Below are positions 15,649 through 44,522 of a stretch of DNA of 64,000 bases, piece after piece. The translations under genes were made by a program, and so were the position numbers. The stretch is taken from assembly GCA_016196065.1 (NCBI GenBank), contig JACPYL010000010.1, positions 1,736,001 through 1,800,000 of the forward strand, read 5' to 3'. Source of the DNA: Acidobacteriota bacterium (GTDB taxonomy: Bacteria; Acidobacteriota; Terriglobia; Terriglobales; Acidobacteriaceae). Every line of letters starts with the position of its first letter. The first letter of the stretch is position 1. Below the pieces are notes generated by a model. The model did not search any database. It saw nothing but the letters and a program-made list of their open reading frames with translations, and had not been told where the DNA came from.

Positions 15649-15763
15649 GGCGCCTCCAGACTAAACTTTTTGATGATCTCCACTCCAAACCGGACTCGCT
15701 GAATTACTGCGGTAACACTACTCCTGATTGGAATTGTCGGTACACCCCCAAGAAAGGCCGATA

Positions 15764-16729
15764 ATGAGGCTTACATCTGGAGACACGTTCATGGAAGTCC
15801 TGCTGGTGGAAGATTCACCGGTCTACCGAAAACTGGTTGGCACGCACTTGGAGAATTGGGGCTTCAAGTTGACGATCGCCAAGGACGGACATGACGCCTG
15901 GAGCCTATTGCAACGCACGGACTGTCCGAAACTGGTCCTGCTGGACTGGGTTCTCCCGGGCATGGACGGCATCGAGATCTGCCAGAAGATTCGACAAGCC
16001 GCCAAGGGCCCACAGTATTCCTACATCATCATTCTGACCGGTAAAGACGCCAAGAAAGACATGCTGGAAGCGATGCAGGCGGGCGCCGATGACTACCTCG
16101 TCAAACCGTTTGATGAAATGGAATTGAAGGCACGCCTGCTGGTCGGGAAACGAATCCTGGCATTGCAGGAGGAGTTGGTTGCGGCGCAGGAATCCATGCG
16201 TCACGCGGCGACCCATGATTCTCTCACCGGCCTGATGAATCGCGGCGAGGTCATGGACACCCTTCGCCGGGAACTGGAGCGAGCGCGACGAAGCCAGAAA
16301 CCAGTCTGCGTAATCCTGGGCGATCTGGACAAGTTCAAGGACATCAACGACACCTGCGGGCATCTGTTTGGCGATGAAGTGCTTCGCGAAATAGGGCGCC
16401 GACTGCGCGCAAAGCTGCGCGTATACGACGCGGTGGGGCGATACGGCGGCGAAGAGTTCCTGATGATCCTTCCGGGCTGCGATGCCATGACGGGGATCAT
16501 TCGCGCCGACCAGTTGCGTCTAAACGTGGCGGCCAAGCCCGTGGTCAGCACACGCGGATCGCGGACCGTTACGCTGAGCCTGGGCATCGCGGTGTCCACT
16601 GACATCGACGGCCAGGATGTTGAAGTGCTGCTGCACCATGCTGACAAGGGTCTCTACCTGGCGAAAAAGAATGGACGCAACCGCGTCGAGCATATCGAAG
16701 CCGACCTTCAAAGTACGTCCAGCCGTTAA
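15764..16729 (+). CDS. Response regulator diguanylate cyclase (REC-GGDEF)
   Basis: The protein has 321 residues. Residues about 10-125 are a receiver domain with the acidic pocket (VED), phospho-acceptor Asp61 (LVLLDWVLPGMDG), a Thr (ILTG) and Lys (LVKPFD). A short coiled coil leads to the GGDEF domain: HDSLTGLMNR, the active-site loop RYGGEEF, and an upstream RVYD in the position of the RxxD inhibitory site. It should make c-di-GMP from GTP when phosphorylated and be product-inhibited. Starts at 15764 (AAAGG 6 bases upstream) and 15791 (GGAG 8 bases upstream) are both possible; the second begins directly at the receiver domain. A PilZ gene follows. Confidence 0.93.
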   Translation: MRLTSGDTFMEVLLVEDSPVYRKLVGTHLENWGFKLTIAKDGHDAWSLLQRTDCPKLVLLDWVLPGMDGIEICQKIRQAAKGPQYSYIIILTGKDAKKDMLEAMQAGADDYLVKPFDEMELKARLLVGKRILALQEELVAAQESMRHAATHDSLTGLMNRGEVMDTLRRELERARRSQKPVCVILGDLDKFKDINDTCGHLFGDEVLREIGRRLRAKLRVYDAVGRYGGEEFLMILPGCDAMTGIIRADQLRLNVAAKPVVSTRGSRTVTLSLGIAVSTDIDGQDVEVLLHHADKGLYLAKKNGRNRVEHIEADLQSTSSR

Positions 16730-16932: not shown

Positions 16933-17292
16933 ATGGATCGCCGCGAGCATCCGCGCTACATGGTTTGTCTGGAGATCGAAGTCCGCGAGGCCACGAGCTG
17001 CTTCTCGTCTCGCGGGACTACGACGGATGCGAGCCTGGGGGGCTGCTACATCGCCACCATATTTCCGCTCGCGCCAGGGTCGGTTGTGACGTACCGGTTG
17101 TGGGTTGGCGATCAGCCGATTCAAGGCAGCGCAACCGTGCAAACATGCCATCCCGGCGTAGGCATGGGCCTCAAGTTCAACGACTTGTCGACTGAAGCTG
17201 TATTAGTCCTGGATCAGTATCTTCGGAACTCGACTTCTATTCCCATGCACGTGGCTTTTTCACAAGTGCGTTCGTTTCAGTCTGGCAAGTAG
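16933..17292 (+). CDS. PilZ-domain protein (c-di-GMP receptor)
   Basis: This 119-residue protein is a single PilZ domain. The c-di-GMP-binding motif RxxxR is seen at the N-terminus (RREHPR), and D/NxSxxG as DASLGG about 30 residues later, so the binding residues are intact. It lies 203 bases downstream of a diguanylate cyclase gene on the same strand, so it may read the signal made there. GAGG lies 9 bases before the ATG. PilZ proteins can control motility, pili or exopolysaccharide; which one is not visible here. Confidence 0.9.
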   Translation: MDRREHPRYMVCLEIEVREATSCFSSRGTTTDASLGGCYIATIFPLAPGSVVTYRLWVGDQPIQGSATVQTCHPGVGMGLKFNDLSTEAVLVLDQYLRNSTSIPMHVAFSQVRSFQSGK

Positions 17293-33408: not shown

Positions 33409-34143
33409 CTAACCCATGCGCGGCAACTCTTCGGCCGCGATGCGATTGAACTGCGTGTCAAAAATTGAAAGTGCGCGCTGCATCATTTCCGTGGAGCGCT
33501 GTACGGTGATCAAGTCCACTGCACCCATGACAGGATCGACATTGGAAGATTCCAGTGCTCCCTGCCGGACGACTGATTTCTTGGAGGGCACTCCATTGCT
33601 TTTTTCTGCGGAATAGTACGTCTTGCCGACACTCTGGAGTTGCACCTCGGGTGGGAACTCAACCACTTCGATTTTTCCCGCGACAGCGCCGTCAACCGAG
33701 AGTGTTCCATCGCCACTCATGGTTACCGGGCCATCTGGAACTTTAATGATGCCTTTTTGGCCCAATACGGGATCTCCTTCGGAAGTCACCAGTTGCCCGT
33801 GACTCAAATGAAAGGATCCGTTGCGGGTGAAGACTTTTCCGTTGGCGGTTTGCACGGCAAAGAACCCAGGACCTTCGATCGCCAGGTCAAGTTGGTTGCC
33901 GGTGGTTTGCAATCCACCTTGTGCCATGTCGAGGCGACTGCCTTCGAGCACGCCAAAGTTGTTCGTAGCCTGGTTGACTTCGCTGATCGGCATCCCGGCA
34001 TTTGCAGCCAGTACGGACCGGAAGATACTACGCTGCGCGCGATACCCTGCCGTGCTGCCATTGGCAAGGTTGTTGGCAACCAATTCGAGTGACTGAGCCT
34101 GGGCCATCATTGCGGTGCATGCAGCGTAGTATCCGGGATCCAT
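33409..34143 (-). CDS. flgF: Flagellar proximal rod protein FlgF
   Basis: I start at the ATG at 34143 (AGGAGA about 7 bases upstream), giving 244 residues beginning MDPGYYAACTAMMAQAQSLE. The rod motif VANNLANGSTAGYRAQ and C-terminal GALESSNVDPVMGAVDLITV fit FlgF/FlgG-type rod proteins; FlgF is chosen by length and position before flgG. It is preceded by a 197-base gap with a weak sigma54-like match (34173-34187). Confidence 0.9.
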   Translation of the reverse strand: MDPGYYAACTAMMAQAQSLELVANNLANGSTAGYRAQRSIFRSVLAANAGMPISEVNQATNNFGVLEGSRLDMAQGGLQTTGNQLDLAIEGPGFFAVQTANGKVFTRNGSFHLSHGQLVTSEGDPVLGQKGIIKVPDGPVTMSGDGTLSVDGAVAGKIEVVEFPPEVQLQSVGKTYYSAEKSNGVPSKKSVVRQGALESSNVDPVMGAVDLITVQRSTEMMQRALSIFDTQFNRIAAEELPRMG

Positions 34144-34340
34144 TGACACTCTCCTGACTGCGTAGAAGAAGAGCACTTCATGCCCCAGCATGGATCGTTG
34201 TCTTTTTCTGCTAAGTGCTTGAAAACCACTGGTGGAGAACTACTGGATGAGATACAGATGAGGATCTGCGATTTCAGGTGGCGGGAAGCCCGTCAGGGAT
34301 CGACGATGCGTTCTAACTTCGTACTATTCTGGCGACGAGT

Positions 34341-35159
34341 TCAGCCTGAGTACGCGTGCTGCCATTCATCCACCTTGTTCGCCAGCTTCTGCAGGACTTC
34401 CATCTTGTTCGGCAGGTGCTGCCAGAGGAGGTTGTCCGCGACAAGCTGATCCAAAGCCGCCGGGCGGTCCGCGGAGGTGGTCTGAAGTTTGTTCACCCAT
34501 TCTCGAGCGACTGCAACTCGCCGGACCGTCTGGAGATGCTGCGGCGCTGCCTGCACCGGTTGCCGGTGCCAGCGCATGCTCTCCACCAGGTAGTCGGGCA
34601 GATTCCAGTTCTCCCGAGAAGGCGCGATGTCCTTGAGTGAGCAGTTGCAGTTATCGCTCAGGCAAACCAGGGCGGGAAGGTCGTGTAGCAATCCTGCCAT
34701 GTATGCAGTTTCAGGCGAGAGGTCACCAAGTTGGATGGAGATCGTTTCGGCTGCGAGAGCAACGAAACGGGTCCGGCGCAAACGCCAGCGGAGCTTCCAG
34801 ACTTCTGCTTCGGAGAGCGGCTGGGTCCACACTGGCACCATGCGCGCGGCCCGTCGCAGAGTGCGCGTACCGAGATGGATCAAGCAGGTTTCGAGAGAAA
34901 GCGGGCGTTGGTCCTCGTAGCTGCGTGCCAGACGGATCATTTCGGCTGCAAAGCCAGGATCCCCGCGTACCACGGATACGATCTTTGCCAGGTCGAGGCT
35001 CTGGCCGCCCAAAAGCAGCTCCAGTTCCACCAGCGTCGTCGGCAGAGCCGGGAACGGCGGGAAATAGCGACAGGGACTTGGTTGAGCCTGCTCTTTCCAG
35101 GGGAGAGGAGCCTGGCTTCGTCTCGCCTCCCCTTTGCCGACTTGGACTGGTTCGTGCAT
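34341..35159 (-). CDS. HDOD-domain protein within the flagellar superoperon
   Basis: This 272-residue protein has an HDOD domain: a helical core with SLDLAKIVSVVRGDPGFAAE, RPLSLETCLIHLGTRTLRRA and an HD-like motif (ETAYMAGLLHDLPALVCL). HDOD proteins are regulatory relatives of HD-GYP enzymes; here I see HD but no GYP motif, so phosphodiesterase activity is not expected. It lies 62 bases after the MshEN-domain gene, before flgF. HDOD proteins have been linked to signalling and motility in several bacteria; a role in flagellar control here is inference. Confidence 0.75.
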   Translation of the reverse strand: MHEPVQVGKGEARRSQAPLPWKEQAQPSPCRYFPPFPALPTTLVELELLLGGQSLDLAKIVSVVRGDPGFAAEMIRLARSYEDQRPLSLETCLIHLGTRTLRRAARMVPVWTQPLSEAEVWKLRWRLRRTRFVALAAETISIQLGDLSPETAYMAGLLHDLPALVCLSDNCNCSLKDIAPSRENWNLPDYLVESMRWHRQPVQAAPQHLQTVRRVAVAREWVNKLQTTSADRPAALDQLVADNLLWQHLPNKMEVLQKLANKVDEWQHAYSG

Positions 35160-35221
35160 TGGCCGGGTACTTCATCGGCCATAAGCACTTCGCAGCTTAG
35201 TGGATCGCTCTATTTGTGCAT

Positions 35222-36106
35222 CTAGGAGTTGTGACGGAAGAGCAGGTCAACGTCATTCTTGTGTCCGCTCATCCGTACCCACAGGTGCTCGCCACAAAGG
35301 GCATGATGAACCCGCCGGCTGCCGAGCTTCCCAACGTAACTGGCGCAGATTCGGGCCATCTCGACCGGTGGACAGACCCGGTCGAAAACCACTTCGTGCA
35401 ACCGTTTTTCAGTCATGAGGAACTGAAGCCGCCGTTCGTACTCGCTCATGGTGATGAAGCAGGCGTCCACAGAACAGTTGAGCATGCGCTGCAATACGGC
35501 GAGTAGGCGGTGATCGGGACCGTCGGCAAAGCCCAGTAGTAACGTCCGCGAGGACTCCACAAAGTGCAACGGGACGATACGGTAGAGTTCTACGAGATAG
35601 AGCGGGACTCGGACGGGCAGCCACGAGATCGCGCTATTCGACGGGAATGTGGGGTGACCCCATTGTGCGGCGAGAGCGGCTGTAACTTGTTCTTCGGTTA
35701 CGAACTTCTTCTGCAAGAGGATATCGCCGAGACGTGAGCCCGTGGAAAGATGCTCCTGCAGAGCCTCCGCCAGTTGTCCTTCCGTGACCTCTCCGCGCGA
35801 CAGAAACATCAGACCGAGAGGCAGGCGCGCCTTGCGGGCAGGTCGGGGCTGCTTGCGCGTCACAACCAGGCTGTTGAATTGGCGCAAGAGGGCTGCCTCG
35901 TAACAGGGTGGGCTGCACAGCCATTCGCCATCGACAATGACTCCGTCGAGACGGCGCGCGAACGAATACTGCACCGACTTGCGTTTGCAGTCGGGATACG
36001 CGCAGGGCGTAACCATGCTTTGCCAGCGGCGCGAAGACGAGCCAAAAAGGTCGACCAGGCGGTTGACGAGTGAAGAGTCTCTCACAGCAGGATTCGATGT
36101 GCTCAC
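35222..36106 (-). CDS. Zinc-finger-like plus MshEN (c-di-GMP-binding) domain protein
   Basis: The 294-residue protein starts with GTG (36106), overlapping the fliN2 stop by 4 bases (GTGA). Residues 35-68 carry Cys35-x4-Cys40-x23-Cys64-x3-Cys68, a likely zinc site. Residues 96-148 match the MshEN c-di-GMP motif as two 24-residue units separated by 5: the first from PLG at 96, the second RLGDILLQKKFVTEEQVTAA (125-144) to AAQ (148). The first unit has Pro instead of Arg. The following region (PLYLVELYRIVPLHFV, TLLLGFADG) fits the rest of the GspE N-terminal fold. There is no ATPase domain, so it is a stand-alone receptor, not a secretion motor. Position suggests it acts on the flagellar switch. 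Confidence 0.78.
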   Translation of the reverse strand: MSTSNPAVRDSSLVNRLVDLFGSSSRRWQSMVTPCAYPDCKRKSVQYSFARRLDGVIVDGEWLCSPPCYEAALLRQFNSLVVTRKQPRPARKARLPLGLMFLSRGEVTEGQLAEALQEHLSTGSRLGDILLQKKFVTEEQVTAALAAQWGHPTFPSNSAISWLPVRVPLYLVELYRIVPLHFVESSRTLLLGFADGPDHRLLAVLQRMLNCSVDACFITMSEYERRLQFLMTEKRLHEVVFDRVCPPVEMARICASYVGKLGSRRVHHALCGEHLWVRMSGHKNDVDLLFRHNS

Positions 36107-36876
36107 AGTTGGCTCCTGTCAAACAATTCAGTGACACGCAATCCGTAGTTGCCGTCGACGATCATGACTTCACCACGCGCCAGCACGCGATCGCCGAGGA
36201 CGAGGTCGATTGGTTCTTCCACTTTTCGATCGAGTTCGATTACGGATCCGGGCCCGAGGGCGGCCAATTTCGCAAGCGTGATGGACTGCTGTCCGAATCG
36301 CAATGTGACGTCCAGAGCAGCGTCCATGACCAGCTTGAAGTTGCCCGCACCATCGAGTGCAGAGGTTCGTGCGTTGACCAGATTGTTGATGGTGAGATTC
36401 GAATGGCAAAGGAAATATGCACGCACCGTGGGACGGTCAGCACTTGTTGCCTCGAGAACAATTGTCTGCTGGGGAGTCCACGTCGGAGGGTCGCAAGCTT
36501 CCATGCGGCCCACTAGCGGTCCATGATTTGCCTGAAACGCGCTCATCGCCGCCACCAGCGCCTGCCGCAGGTTCTGTTGGATCGCGGAGGCCCCAGCATC
36601 GGGGGTGGCGTCAGATTGTGGCCGCCCGGGATCACAGGACATCTCTTCCAACGTTTGCAGGCCGTCAGTGGGAATCACCAGGGCCGCGTCCCCAAGAAGC
36701 GAGCCGTCGAAGGATATTCCTATGCATAGGGGATGAGTTCCAGCATCCGACAGATCTCCATTTTCGAGCGTGACCTGGCAAGAGGTGCCGAGCAAGCGGC
36801 CAACGGCGTCAGCCCATGGCTTCGTAAGGCTTTCCAGTAAGTTTGAAATTGCGTTCTCCAGGGTGAGTTCGTTCAT
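36103..36876 (-). CDS. FliN/FliY-like flagellar switch protein (long form)
   Basis: The 257-residue protein has a C-terminal SpoA/FliN domain (about 180-250: VMDAALDVTLRFGQQSITLA, IDLVLGDRVLARGEVMIVDG, YGLRVTEL). The N-terminal 150 residues resemble the middle domain of FliM or the CheC-like part of FliY (NAISNLLESLTKPWADAVGR, IQQNLRQALVAAMSAF). A second, short FliN lies at 44256-44522. The start overlaps the fliM stop by 4 bases, and its stop overlaps the MshEN gene. Phosphatase activity of the FliY type is not evident. Confidence 0.85.
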   Translation of the reverse strand: MNELTLENAISNLLESLTKPWADAVGRLLGTSCQVTLENGDLSDAGTHPLCIGISFDGSLLGDAALVIPTDGLQTLEEMSCDPGRPQSDATPDAGASAIQQNLRQALVAAMSAFQANHGPLVGRMEACDPPTWTPQQTIVLEATSADRPTVRAYFLCHSNLTINNLVNARTSALDGAGNFKLVMDAALDVTLRFGQQSITLAKLAALGPGSVIELDRKVEEPIDLVLGDRVLARGEVMIVDGNYGLRVTELFDRSQL

Positions 36877-37865
36877 TGCAGTTCGGACCTCCGTGATTCA
36901 ATACCGGTTGAAGGAATAGGTTGTTCAATCTTTGCGGCTCTCCAGTGGCCATTCCGGGCCGGTAGCGCCGAAAATATCTCTCGTCCGCCAACTAAGAGAT
37001 GGGCCGGCTGATCGGCCCGCAAAGGAAGTTTCAGCAGAGAGTTGAGGCCGAGTTCTACCAGGTCTCGAATGGCAACACGCATGGCAGGAAGGACGAGTTC
37101 CGTTGAAACAGACATTGTGGAAAGTGCGTCTCCAAATTCCTTGCTCATGGGTGGGGCGGAATTTGCCGCCAGCGCTGGTCCTGGAAGATTCAATGCTTTG
37201 GCCATGGATTCGACCAGAGAAGGGTTGAGTAGAACGCTGATCTTTCCTTCGTTCTCTCCCAACTTCATCTTGAAATCCAGACTCAGCAGGCGTCCCGATG
37301 GTGGAATGAGGCGGCGAGCGGCTTTGCCAACGCTGAGATCGGAGTGGAGACGGAGATGCAATTCGTGCCAGGCGATTTCCAGTTCGCGCGCCACCATTCG
37401 ACTCATTTCGGAGAGGATTTGGACGTCGACTTCAGTCAATTCGGGTCGATCGAGAGGTTTCTCTCCGGAGCCGCCGAGCAAAAGGTCGAGGCAGGCAGCC
37501 GCAATCGGAGCGTCAATGACGACAAAGACCGGTGACGGGTGCGACTCGATCTTGAGCGCGACCGGAAGCGAACCGGGTGTGAGAGTCTCCGCGACCTGTT
37601 CGTAGAGCATCTCTCGGGCTGCGGACGGTTCGAGTTCGACCAGCGCGCGGAAATAGACGCTCAATGACCGGGCCAGTCCCCGAGCAAAGGGGCGGTGAAG
37701 ATTGCTAACGAAATCAACGGAACTTTCTGGGATTCCTGCGCCGCTTTGCGCATCCCATTTCTGGACCGATCGAAACATAAGCTTGCGCTCTGGGCGCGCA
37801 GCTGACGAGCTCTCCGGGGCGGCTACTTCGGGCGAGTTAACGACGCTCTCTTTGTTTTCGGCCAT
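36873..37865 (-). CDS. fliM: Flagellar motor switch protein FliM, lacking the usual N-terminal CheY-binding motif
   Basis: I start at the ATG at 37865 (AGGAAG about 5 bases upstream), giving 330 residues. The middle domain (SVDFVSNLHRPFARGLARSL, AREMLYEQVAETLTPGSLPV, ACLDLLLGGSGE) and the C-terminal SpoA domain (VELGLNSLLKLPLRADQPAH) mark FliM. The first 25 residues have no LSQDEIDALL-type motif, which normally binds phosphorylated CheY. It lies 8 bases after fliA and overlaps the fliN2 start by 4. Confidence 0.9.
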   Translation of the reverse strand: MAENKESVVNSPEVAAPESSSAARPERKLMFRSVQKWDAQSGAGIPESSVDFVSNLHRPFARGLARSLSVYFRALVELEPSAAREMLYEQVAETLTPGSLPVALKIESHPSPVFVVIDAPIAAACLDLLLGGSGEKPLDRPELTEVDVQILSEMSRMVARELEIAWHELHLRLHSDLSVGKAARRLIPPSGRLLSLDFKMKLGENEGKISVLLNPSLVESMAKALNLPGPALAANSAPPMSKEFGDALSTMSVSTELVLPAMRVAIRDLVELGLNSLLKLPLRADQPAHLLVGGREIFSALPARNGHWRAAKIEQPIPSTGIESRRSELQ

Positions 37866-37873
37866 GACACTTC

Positions 37874-38653
37874 CTAGGCTCCGGCTACAAACGATCGGAA
37901 GCCCTCGATTTCCTTGTCTTCGAGAAATGTGCGCAGCTTGGTCAGGGCAGCACAATGAATTTGTGAAATGCGCGATTCCCGAACATCGAGGATCGTGGCG
38001 ATTTCCTGCATGGTGAGTTGCTCGACGTAGTACAGCGAAATAACCTGCTGTTCTCTTTCGGTTAATTCGCGAATTGCCTGGGCAAGGTGCTGCTGCATCT
38101 CCGCGCGTACATAGCGGGCAAAGGGGCTGTCCTCGGGGGCTGCCGGCGCCGACTCAATCAGGTCATGGGTTTCGGTACGATCCACTCCCTGCGAGACTTG
38201 CTGGCCAACGGTTTCCAGGCTATCGAGAGTCCTGGTGAGCTTGTGAAGCGCGACCAGCGTTACACCTAGTTCTCCAGCGATTTCTTCTTCGGTGGGCTGA
38301 CGGCCCAGGCGCAGCGAAAGGTGCGTGGTGGCTTCGTCGAGCTTACGGCCGCGTGTTCGAGTGCGACGCGAAGCATGATCGAGGCTGCGAAGGCTGTCAA
38401 TGATTGCCCCGCGAATCCGAAACTGGGCATAGGACTTGAACTGAACGTTCTTGCTCGGATCGAACTTACGCGCCGCGCCGAGGAGACCGAGGACACCTGC
38501 ATGGACGAGATCCTCGAACGGGACCGACTGCGGCAAACGTTCGTGGATGCGGCGGGCGATGAATTGCACCTCCTGCAGTTGGCCAAGGACGAGCTGATCA
38601 CGCTCTTCCAGAGTCTGTGAGTTTTGAGCGTACGTCTGTTCCGCGGGTGTCAT
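37874..38653 (-). CDS. fliA: Flagellar sigma factor FliA (sigma28)
   Basis: This 259-residue protein has sigma regions 2, 3 and 4: LVHAGVLGLLGAARKFDPSK, FKSYAQFRIRGAIIDSLRSL, LGVTLVALHKL, and ERQQVISLYYVEQLTMQEIA-like text near residue 200 ending in SRISQIHCAALTKLR. It directs RNA polymerase to late flagellar genes (flagellin, flgM operon) and is held by FlgM, which is encoded at 29314-29598. It lies 31 bases after flhA and 8 before fliM. Confidence 0.95.
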   Translation of the reverse strand: MTPAEQTYAQNSQTLEERDQLVLGQLQEVQFIARRIHERLPQSVPFEDLVHAGVLGLLGAARKFDPSKNVQFKSYAQFRIRGAIIDSLRSLDHASRRTRTRGRKLDEATTHLSLRLGRQPTEEEIAGELGVTLVALHKLTRTLDSLETVGQQVSQGVDRTETHDLIESAPAAPEDSPFARYVRAEMQQHLAQAIRELTEREQQVISLYYVEQLTMQEIATILDVRESRISQIHCAALTKLRTFLEDKEIEGFRSFVAGA

Positions 38654-43780: not shown

Positions 43781-44259
43781 CGGAGCAAGCCGGCATCGAC
43801 AGATTTGTTTTGCAGCACTGCAGAAAACGATCCCTGGTCGTTAAGTTTTGCGAGCATAGAGACGCTGCCGGTCGAGCCTCCCAGAAGGAAGCTCTCGCAA
43901 TCGACTCTGACAATGGCAAGAAATCGCTTATCGCCCAGTGAGACGCTCTCACAAACGCGCATGCGCTTTTGCGGAGCGCGCATGTTCCTGAAGTAGCGCA
44001 GAAGGACATTCCAGATGCCGCGCTGGGAAGAATTTGAGGGCAGCTCGAGCTTGCCTTCGGAAGTTGGACTCGGCGAGAGCGGGTTGGGCGTGCGCGATGT
44101 AGACGAAGCGGTTCGAGTACGCAGGGCGGTCGTACGGCGTCCGCGTTGCTTCCCAATATCTTTTGCGCGGCTGGTCCGGCGATTCCGGAGAGCAGGCTGC
44201 CGCGCAGGTTCTGTGCTTTCAACTTCGGTCACGCCAACTTCGGGAACATCGATAATCAT
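43777..44259 (-). CDS. fliO: FliO-like flagellar biosynthesis protein without an evident membrane segment
   Basis: The 160-residue protein sits exactly between fliN and fliP. Its last 70 residues match the cytoplasmic FliO domain (KRMRVCESVSLGDKRFLAIV, RVDCESFLLGGSTGSVSMLA). FliO normally has one membrane helix before this domain. Here the first 90 residues are Arg/Ser/Thr-rich and polar, with only a short amphipathic stretch (IWNVLLRYFRNM). Either FliO works as a soluble or peripheral protein here, or the helix is lost. It overlaps its neighbours by 4 bases on both sides. Confidence 0.78.
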   Translation of the reverse strand: MIIDVPEVGVTEVESTEPARQPALRNRRTSRAKDIGKQRGRRTTALRTRTASSTSRTPNPLSPSPTSEGKLELPSNSSQRGIWNVLLRYFRNMRAPQKRMRVCESVSLGDKRFLAIVRVDCESFLLGGSTGSVSMLAKLNDQGSFSAVLQNKSVDAGLLR

Positions 44260-44522
44260 AGGAGCTCCGTAATTCTTGCGGCCAGGTGATCGCCGACGAC
44301 GTCAAGCTTGGCCCAGGCCATTAGTTTTCCGTTCACCAGGACCGGTATTTGAGCACCGGCGGGAATGGTCCCCTGCACAATCGAGCCCGGTGCCAGATGC
44401 AGTAACTCCTGCACTGAAAAACGTTCCAGGACAGTTTCTAAACAAACGGTTAAGGGTATCCATCCCAGCTTTTTCAGCGGGTTATTGACCGTCACCGTTG
44501 GTTGCTCGATCACTTCAGCCAT
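44256..44522 (-). CDS. fliN: Flagellar motor switch protein FliN (short form)
   Basis: This 88-residue protein is essentially one SpoA domain: WIPLTVCLETVLERFSVQEL, LLHLAPGSIVQGTIPAGAQI, VLVNGKLMAWAKLDVVGDHL. It forms the lower C-ring with FliM. It is 27 bases downstream of fliL and overlaps fliO by 4 bases. It is one of two FliN-type proteins here; the other (36103-36876) is three times longer. Confidence 0.92.
   Translation of the reverse strand: MAEVIEQPTVTVNNPLKKLGWIPLTVCLETVLERFSVQELLHLAPGSIVQGTIPAGAQIPVLVNGKLMAWAKLDVVGDHLAARITELL

Follow-up and report, generated by a model that had tools for sequence, protein, structure and literature searches.

Flagellar motors are known to respond to cyclic di-GMP (c-di-GMP) by way of PilZ and CheY-like proteins: the YcgR/PilZ flagellar brakes are c-di-GMP receptors acting on the motor, and CleD represents its CheY-like receptors. 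The 64,000-nucleotide stretch analyzed here (the window; part of the 2.06-Mb contig JACPYL010000010.1 in the 5.5-Mb genome of an Acidobacteriota bacterium) carries a flagellar gene cluster in which an MshEN protein is encoded directly behind fliN2. Its would-be task is that of the YcgR/PilZ brakes, which have the PilZ fold, whereas the window protein is an MshEN protein with no PilZ domain among its Pfam matches up to E 1. With the CleD-type receptors it would have in common a c-di-GMP input to the motor switch, but those have a receiver fold. Gene order, co-occurrence and predicted fold favor, as the likeliest reading of the gene product, a c-di-GMP receptor that is cytoplasmic, serves the flagellar switch and is present in many flagellated Acidobacteriota, with a probability that we put at roughly 0.5. 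No publication on an MshEN gene in a flagellar operon was found in a partial coverage of the literature on MshEN, flagella, FliM/FliN and HDOD, and judged from that partial literature the protein family beside the Acidobacteriota switch genes is undescribed.

By fold, the protein compares best with the MshE, PilB, PilF and GspE-type ATPases, with which it has in common the MshEN/GSPII fold, two 24-residue motifs separated by a 5-residue spacer, and the MshEN_C subdomain. It differs from them in having no ATPase, in adding a four-cysteine module and a C-terminal alpha/beta region, in the location of its gene in a flagellar operon, and in a proline at position 1 of motif I, found in 56/56 rows of an alignment of the window protein and 55 relatives (A3). 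A further match is to NfrB, a c-di-GMP-activated glycosyltransferase, residues 477–649 of which align with residues 91–264 at 44.2 bits (cut-off 1170); at E ≤ 0.001 the NfrB model is matched by 53 rows out of 56 in A3, but the window protein has no glycosyltransferase and its setting is unrelated. MshEN domains joined to REC, CheX, CheA and HD-GYP are described in general in PMC5013675, the accessible part of which describes no flagellar-operon family.

The original prediction of an MshEN domain with no ATPase attached was borne out by the family model NF053729, by Foldseek and by VIA-align. AlphaFold2 modeling of the window protein with the 55 relatives gave a pLDDT of 87.3 and a pTM of 0.81, with 14 residues below pLDDT 50, mainly residues 1–11. 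A Foldseek search with this model returned 19 PDB chains at E ≤ 0.001, all of them MshEN, GSPII or XpsE-N domains. VIA-align superposed model residues 94–231 on MshE 7–145 in complex with c-di-GMP (5htl_B; Z 12.6, 134 residues aligned, 2.6 Å), and PilF GSPII-B with c-di-GMP gave Z 11.0–12.4, compared with Z 5.5 for the best chain outside the secretion and pilus ATPases. The A3 profile finds MshE at 2.5e-15 and PilF at 1e-27. On the predicted structure, the protein has the MshEN fold, comprising MshEN_N and MshEN_C. Assignment of residues 235–294 to a known domain was dropped, the VIA rows for this region having Z 4.3 or less.

The two motif units and their spacer, as first noticed, coincide with a full-length match to the 53-position NF053729 model (c-di-GMP_motif, MshE-related; 53.3 bits, cut-off 38, E 1.7e-14), which at E ≤ 0.001 also picks up every one of the 56 A3 rows. 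With the Pfam MshEN model PF05157 the window protein stays below the gathering score (14.8 versus 23.1 bits), which is probably a matter of divergence, because 6/8 relatives run against it pass the cut-off. The presence of the motif thus stands; its description as near-perfect does not, only 15 of 22 constrained positions fitting the consensus RLGxx(LVI)(LVI)xxG(LVI)(LVI)xxxxLxxxLxxQ (PMC5013675). Two of the misses are common among relatives (Pro96 in 56/56 and Val141 in 48/56 rows of A3), the turn position Lys134 is variable, with glycine in 29/56 rows, and His119 in place of the motif I glutamine is peculiar to the window protein. The zinc-like site of four cysteines, as first noticed, is present in the N-terminal part and nearly invariant: in a second alignment of 67 rows, 19 of which come from elsewhere in the phylum, positions 35, 40, 64 and 68 are cysteine in 64/67, 67/67, 67/67 and 67/67 rows. 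The model groups them at a beta hairpin and a helix start, an arrangement that we take to resemble treble-clef zinc sites, and the module probably binds zinc.

To assess distribution, 396 Acidobacteriota genomes were scored, with up to six candidates per genome, so that absences are soft; matches starting at profile position 39 or earlier with at least 90 bits were counted as full-length. Such a protein is present in 58 of the genomes, namely in 57/132 with FlhA, taken as the marker of the flagellar export gate, and in 1/264 without, the latter being E. lichenicola M8US30. Within the family of the host, 38 of 41 FlhA-positive genomes carry the gene (G176, G292 and G436 do not); elsewhere in the class the count is 0/2, and in the rest of the phylum 19/89. 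The window protein itself matches 38/61 relatives at E ≤ 1e-5, some of which are PilB-like ATPases with open frames of 570–640 aa.

Conservation of the gene beside the flagellar switch genes of relatives had been set in advance as a test of the original prediction, and in 96 of 103 loci a same-strand fliN was found no more than 3 kb upstream (59/64 named, 17/19 from other parts of the phylum, 20/20 from the family). From the 58 genomes 39 neighborhoods were fetched, with fliN upstream in 37; some genomes occur in two sets. The fliN and MshEN open reading frames (ORFs) often overlap by 4 or 13 bases. Three of the seven exceptions lie at contig ends (L150, L188, L102) and four do not (L148, L149, L169, L111). 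A contig scan with patterns specific to the group of the host gave 64 loci, all in Acidobacteriota or groups within it. The arrangement as a mere local oddity was rejected, as the gene recurs behind fliN in many Acidobacteriota, though patchily outside the family of the host.

We hypothesize that this protein, which consists of a four-cysteine, probably zinc-binding module, a complete MshEN domain and, last, a small alpha/beta region, is co-produced with FliM and FliN and most likely sits on the FliM–FliN complex of the C-ring. It would pass the c-di-GMP level on to the C-ring and so alter rotation, switching or assembly; both its binding to FliM/FliN and the direction of its influence are putative.

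Two groups of observations, one in the ligand contacts and one in the distribution, weigh against a c-di-GMP receptor of the switch. Ten MshE residues contact c-di-GMP (Arg9, Leu10, Gly11, Gln32, Arg38, Leu39, Gly40, Leu54, Leu58 and Gln61; PMC5013675), and seven of their equivalents are kept in the window protein (Pro96, Leu97, Gly98, His119, Arg125, Leu126, Gly127, Val141, Leu145 and Gln148, respectively). It differs at Pro96, His119 and Val141; with Arg9 and Gln32 of MshE replaced by proline and histidine, two polar or stacking contact residues are missing from this copy. The non-binding GSPII-A domain of PilF likewise has histidine at the motif I glutamine, among other changes, and alanine at the equivalent motif II glycine in PilF constructs cost about tenfold (PMC12002112). 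Gly98 is replaced by alanine in two loci, L150 and L169, the second of which has the gene order of the window. These features would suit an MshEN domain that is a docking platform rather than a c-di-GMP sensor, binding for instance a PilZ protein, as in Xanthomonas PilB, or the switch itself. The top Foldseek matches are PilB-N domains complexed with PilZ (7lko, 7lkm), XpsE-N has the same fold and has lost binding (PMC5013675), and a PilZ domain is encoded elsewhere in the window.

The glycines and glutamines of the motif argue against a docking role and for a receptor: Gly127 and Gln148, equivalent to Gly40 and Gln61 of MshE, are invariant in the 67-row alignment and in A3 (as is Trp276; Arg278 is found in 64/67 rows), and Gly98, equivalent to Gly11, rarely varies (67/67 and 54/56 rows). 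The motif I glutamine is kept in 55/56 rows of A3 and 63/67 rows of the larger alignment. At motif I position 1, arginine or lysine, as in binding MshEN domains, is found in 16 of the 19 rows from elsewhere in the phylum, and the A3 rows with their proline have an arginine two residues upstream of it. The motif arginine is not essential for binding (PMC5013675, PMC11731258); because binding falls by at most about fivefold in MshE changed at Arg9, Asp12 or Gln32 (PMC5013675) and because PilF GSPII-C binds despite a proline at the first position of motif II (PMC11731258, PMC12002112), its loss need not abolish binding. Judging from the residues, the MshEN family of flagellar clusters is likely to bind c-di-GMP; for the window copy itself the odds appear about even, and a pure docking role seems rather unlikely.

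On the side of distribution, scoring up to six candidates per genome failed to find the gene in 75 of the 132 FlhA-positive genomes and in most flagellated Acidobacteriota outside the family of the host; the protein is therefore not needed for a flagellum. Four genomes of the host genus (G014, G017, G018 and G019) carry it without a full FlhA, and in L111 (G291) its surroundings are not flagellar. In the sub-lineage of the window, L036, L037 and L169 have it away from fliN: there it stays between fliA and flgF with no fliM–fliN beside it, and for this reason FliN as its partner can only be suggested.

Table 1. Coordinates of the MshEN protein gene, its parts, its neighbors in the window, and fused flagellar genes in related loci (L numbers).
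Feature	Coordinates	Strand	Evidence or remark
MshEN protein gene	35222..36106	-	294 aa, GTG start; NF053729, AlphaFold2, Foldseek/VIA to MshE and PilF GSPII-B
Four-cysteine site, residues 35-68 (Cx4C ... Cx3C)	35903..36004	-	Alignment and model; zinc binding inferred
MshEN_N, residues 96-148, two 24-residue motifs and 5-residue spacer	35663..35821	-	NF053729 positions 1-53 of 53
MshEN_C alpha/beta subdomain, residues ~150-234	35405..35659	-	VIA-align; weak PF05157 at 167-226
C-terminal beta-alpha-beta-beta-beta region, residues 235-294, with Trp276 and Arg278	35225..35404	-	Model, alignment
GTGA start/stop overlap of MshEN gene with fliN2	36103..36106	-	Sequence
fliN2, 257 aa, FliN domain 182-251	36103..36876	-	PF01052, 76.7 bits
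fliM, start codon uncertain	36873..37955	-	PF02154, 49.2 bits
fliA (sigma-28)	37874..38653	-	TIGR02479, 219.5 bits
HDOD protein gene, 272 aa	34341..35159	-	PF08668, 58.6 bits (cut-off 22.9), best stretch 37-167
flgF, next flagellar gene downstream	33409..34191	-	PF22692, PF06429, PF00460
FlgC(1-103)::FliM fusions	L033:7317-8396 (host C12), L044:7758-8837, L063:5205-6128, L216:9932-11287		

On the minus strand the genes of the window follow in the order flhA, fliA, fliM, fliN2, MshEN gene, HDOD gene, flgF, flgG (Table 1). Position, strand and start of the MshEN gene were correct as originally given: fliN2 ends in CTG TGA, and the gene begins within it as GTG AGC, a 4-base overlap. The HDOD gene lies 62 bases downstream, as claimed. 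A general conservation of the MshEN–HDOD pair beside fliMN is not supported, HDOD being adjacent in only nine loci and in two orders. Besides the window, the two genes are neighbors in 8 of 134 fetched loci (some genomes being counted twice); L036, L037 and L169 have the order of the window, with the MshEN gene first, and in L095, L096, L097, L099 and L105 the HDOD gene comes first, between fliN and the MshEN gene and 427–843 bases apart from it. Six HDOD candidates were run on Pfam, of which those of L036, L095, L097, L105 and L169 pass; L164 was rejected at 15.9 bits, below the cut-off. Many relatives have a receiver gene behind the MshEN gene in place of HDOD, and in L206, with its separate flgF cluster, flgF is preceded by genes for a receiver and CheX. 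A fixed pair of the two proteins at the C-ring is thus improbable in spite of the nine adjacent cases, and we infer that the HDOD protein of this host is an added, lineage-limited partner.

The window FliM has no EIDxL-type N-terminal motif by sequence inspection and motif scan, though many relatives have one. Between fliP and fliL, a short second FliN-type ORF lies at 44259–44468, so that the cluster has two FliN paralogues; in a relative from the host genus, the FliN at L051:3873-4682 resembles CheX weakly in its N-terminal half (23.3 bits, cut-off 27), presumably reminiscent of FliY. The host has c-di-GMP machinery amounting to 14 GGDEF and 27 PilZ matches. In the window itself, a REC-GGDEF protein (15728–16729) and a PilZ domain (about 16936–17223) are encoded some 20 kb from the MshEN gene, past the end of the flagellar cluster where motAB lies.

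Of 19 genomes tested, 13 gave no FliG, and five of these, G449 (the isolate E. lichenicola M8US30), G451, G014, G017 and G018, also have no FliP and no full FlhA, G018 giving two weak partial FlhA matches. Of these five, all but M8US30 are titled as metagenome-assembled genomes (MAGs), so that their absences are soft. The five keep FliM (shortened to 208 aa in G018), FliN and a long ORF for the MshEN protein, hereafter the receptor, and this co-retention with FliM and FliN supports its assignment to the switch. In M8US30, where no FlhA, FliP or FliG was found, a 195-aa response-regulator-like ORF, FliM, FliN and the receptor are encoded together (L182/L199), with a flgF–flgL cluster (L198) about 20 kb away. 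Open flgF-flgG-...-flgK clusters were seen at L198:5278-12715 and at L200, L201, L202, L206 and L218, with flgL as well except in L218; in the genomes holding them, FlhA, FliP and FliG were not found. At L201:964-1902 in G010, a 312-aa FliC-FliD fusion ORF is another in-frame deletion product.

In two loci, L158:5839-7161 (G450) and L166:5088-6482 (G451), a single ORF contains the Response_reg, Trans_reg_C, FliM and FliMN_C domains; FliN and the receptor come next, and the fetched neighbors include no flagellar gene. This RR::FliM fusion (response regulator to FliM) comprises a complete receiver and most of the winged-helix DNA-binding domain, and the L158 copy has no GGxG loop, which we take to be the part of FliM that contacts FliG. 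The two fusions share one junction, and between them dS, the synonymous divergence, is 2.55 (near saturation), dN, the nonsynonymous divergence, 0.109, and dN/dS 0.043 (bootstrap 0.01–0.07); by part, the ratio is 0.033 for the receiver, 0.067 for the FliM part and 0.14 for FliN, with receptor dS beyond the formula and pairwise ratios near saturation being rough. Because the junction is the same and synonymous sites are nearly saturated at a ratio of 0.043, the comparison points to purifying selection after fusion, assuming one fusion event.

Such loci suggest that FliM, FliN and the receptor may form a separable signaling module, a motor switch in swimmers that some lineages kept after loss of the flagellum, with a phospho-signal from the response regulator. 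Retention of the trio in the five genomes and the selection on the fusion argue for this reading. Against it, G450 retains FlhA and part of FliP, so that its fusion could serve a flagellum (FliG was not found), and G449 and G451 still have flgF, flgG and flgK. The MAG origin of all but G449, the roughness of the ratios, the apparent origin of both fusions from one soil survey and the decay of related loci (broken frames in G016 and G006, a receptor truncated N-terminally in G005 and G012) weaken it further, and we hold the module as a tentative possibility. The stronger claim, that FliM–FliN with the MshEN receptor is an independent two-input switch responding to receiver phosphorylation and c-di-GMP that several lineages retained in the absence of FliG and the export gate, one of them as the RR::FliM fusion, is doubtful.

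The flagellum-less loci might instead be edge remnants of internal deletions, their ends left by chance and now decaying, in which case the protein would have no function outside the flagellum. Both in Edaphobacter and in the cluster type that is commoner in the host genus, the fliM-side cluster ends with the receptor gene; its other end is where the regulators lie that survive upstream in host contig C12 (G000:C12), G014, G016, G017 and G018. The C12 locus (L033) is a second copy in the host, with 32% identity, in which regulators, flgB, an FlgC::FliM fusion, fliN and the receptor are encoded and no other flagellar gene was recognized within the 20 kb read; the host also has a second flgG/flgK set on C27. 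In the 359-aa C12 fusion, FlgC residues 1–103 are joined to the FliM core, and the identical junction after residue 103 recurs in G015, G016 and G017 (coordinates in Table 1; the L063 fusion is split between frames and the L216 ORF contains two N). A single origin of all these fusions was rejected: in the FliM tree (support 1.0 and 0.85) and the receptor tree (0.98) the G000 copy falls with G023/G014, and the rest elsewhere, giving at least two events. G014 and G018 keep the trio with other deletion ends.

Decay is visible in the broken frames of G016 and G006 and in the C12 kinase of G000, split into two ORFs; the G007 receptor copy is cut by a contig end. In G005 and G006 a receiver runs into a receptor that lacks the N-terminal part. 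NtrC-type receivers joined to an MshEN protein copy of that kind were seen at L026:1091-2068 and L062:9352-10014. The dN/dS of relic versus flagellated genomes is mostly undecided owing to saturation or recent loss, but ratios are higher in G017–G008 (receptor 0.35, FliN 0.41) than in the flagellated pair G011–G008 (0.24, 0.21), and the FliN value of M8US30–M8UP22 is 0.168 versus 0.068 in the flagellated pair M8UP30–M8UP22. Survival of the flgF–flgK/L clusters in the same genomes also favors remnants. The RR::FliM fusion, if of single origin, is old and under purifying selection, which argues the other way, and M8US30–M8UP22 shows no relaxation of the receptor (0.043) or of FliM (0.031) compared with the flagellated pair (0.070 and 0.065), although recent loss would look alike. 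Chance remnants are credible, at somewhat less than even odds, and both explanations of the survival of the trio, chance retention at deletion edges and a separable signaling module, are kept open.

If the reading as a receptor of the flagellar switch is true, an MshEN protein encoded in the switch operon would be another c-di-GMP route to the motor, in a common soil phylum, and cultured strains (Edaphobacter, Granulicella, Terracidiphilus) make it testable. The flagellum-poor loci, above all those with the RR::FliM fusion, would allow motor-free signaling by C-ring proteins to be tested; were the two-input switch to prove true, parts of the flagellar C-ring would be reusable signaling hardware.

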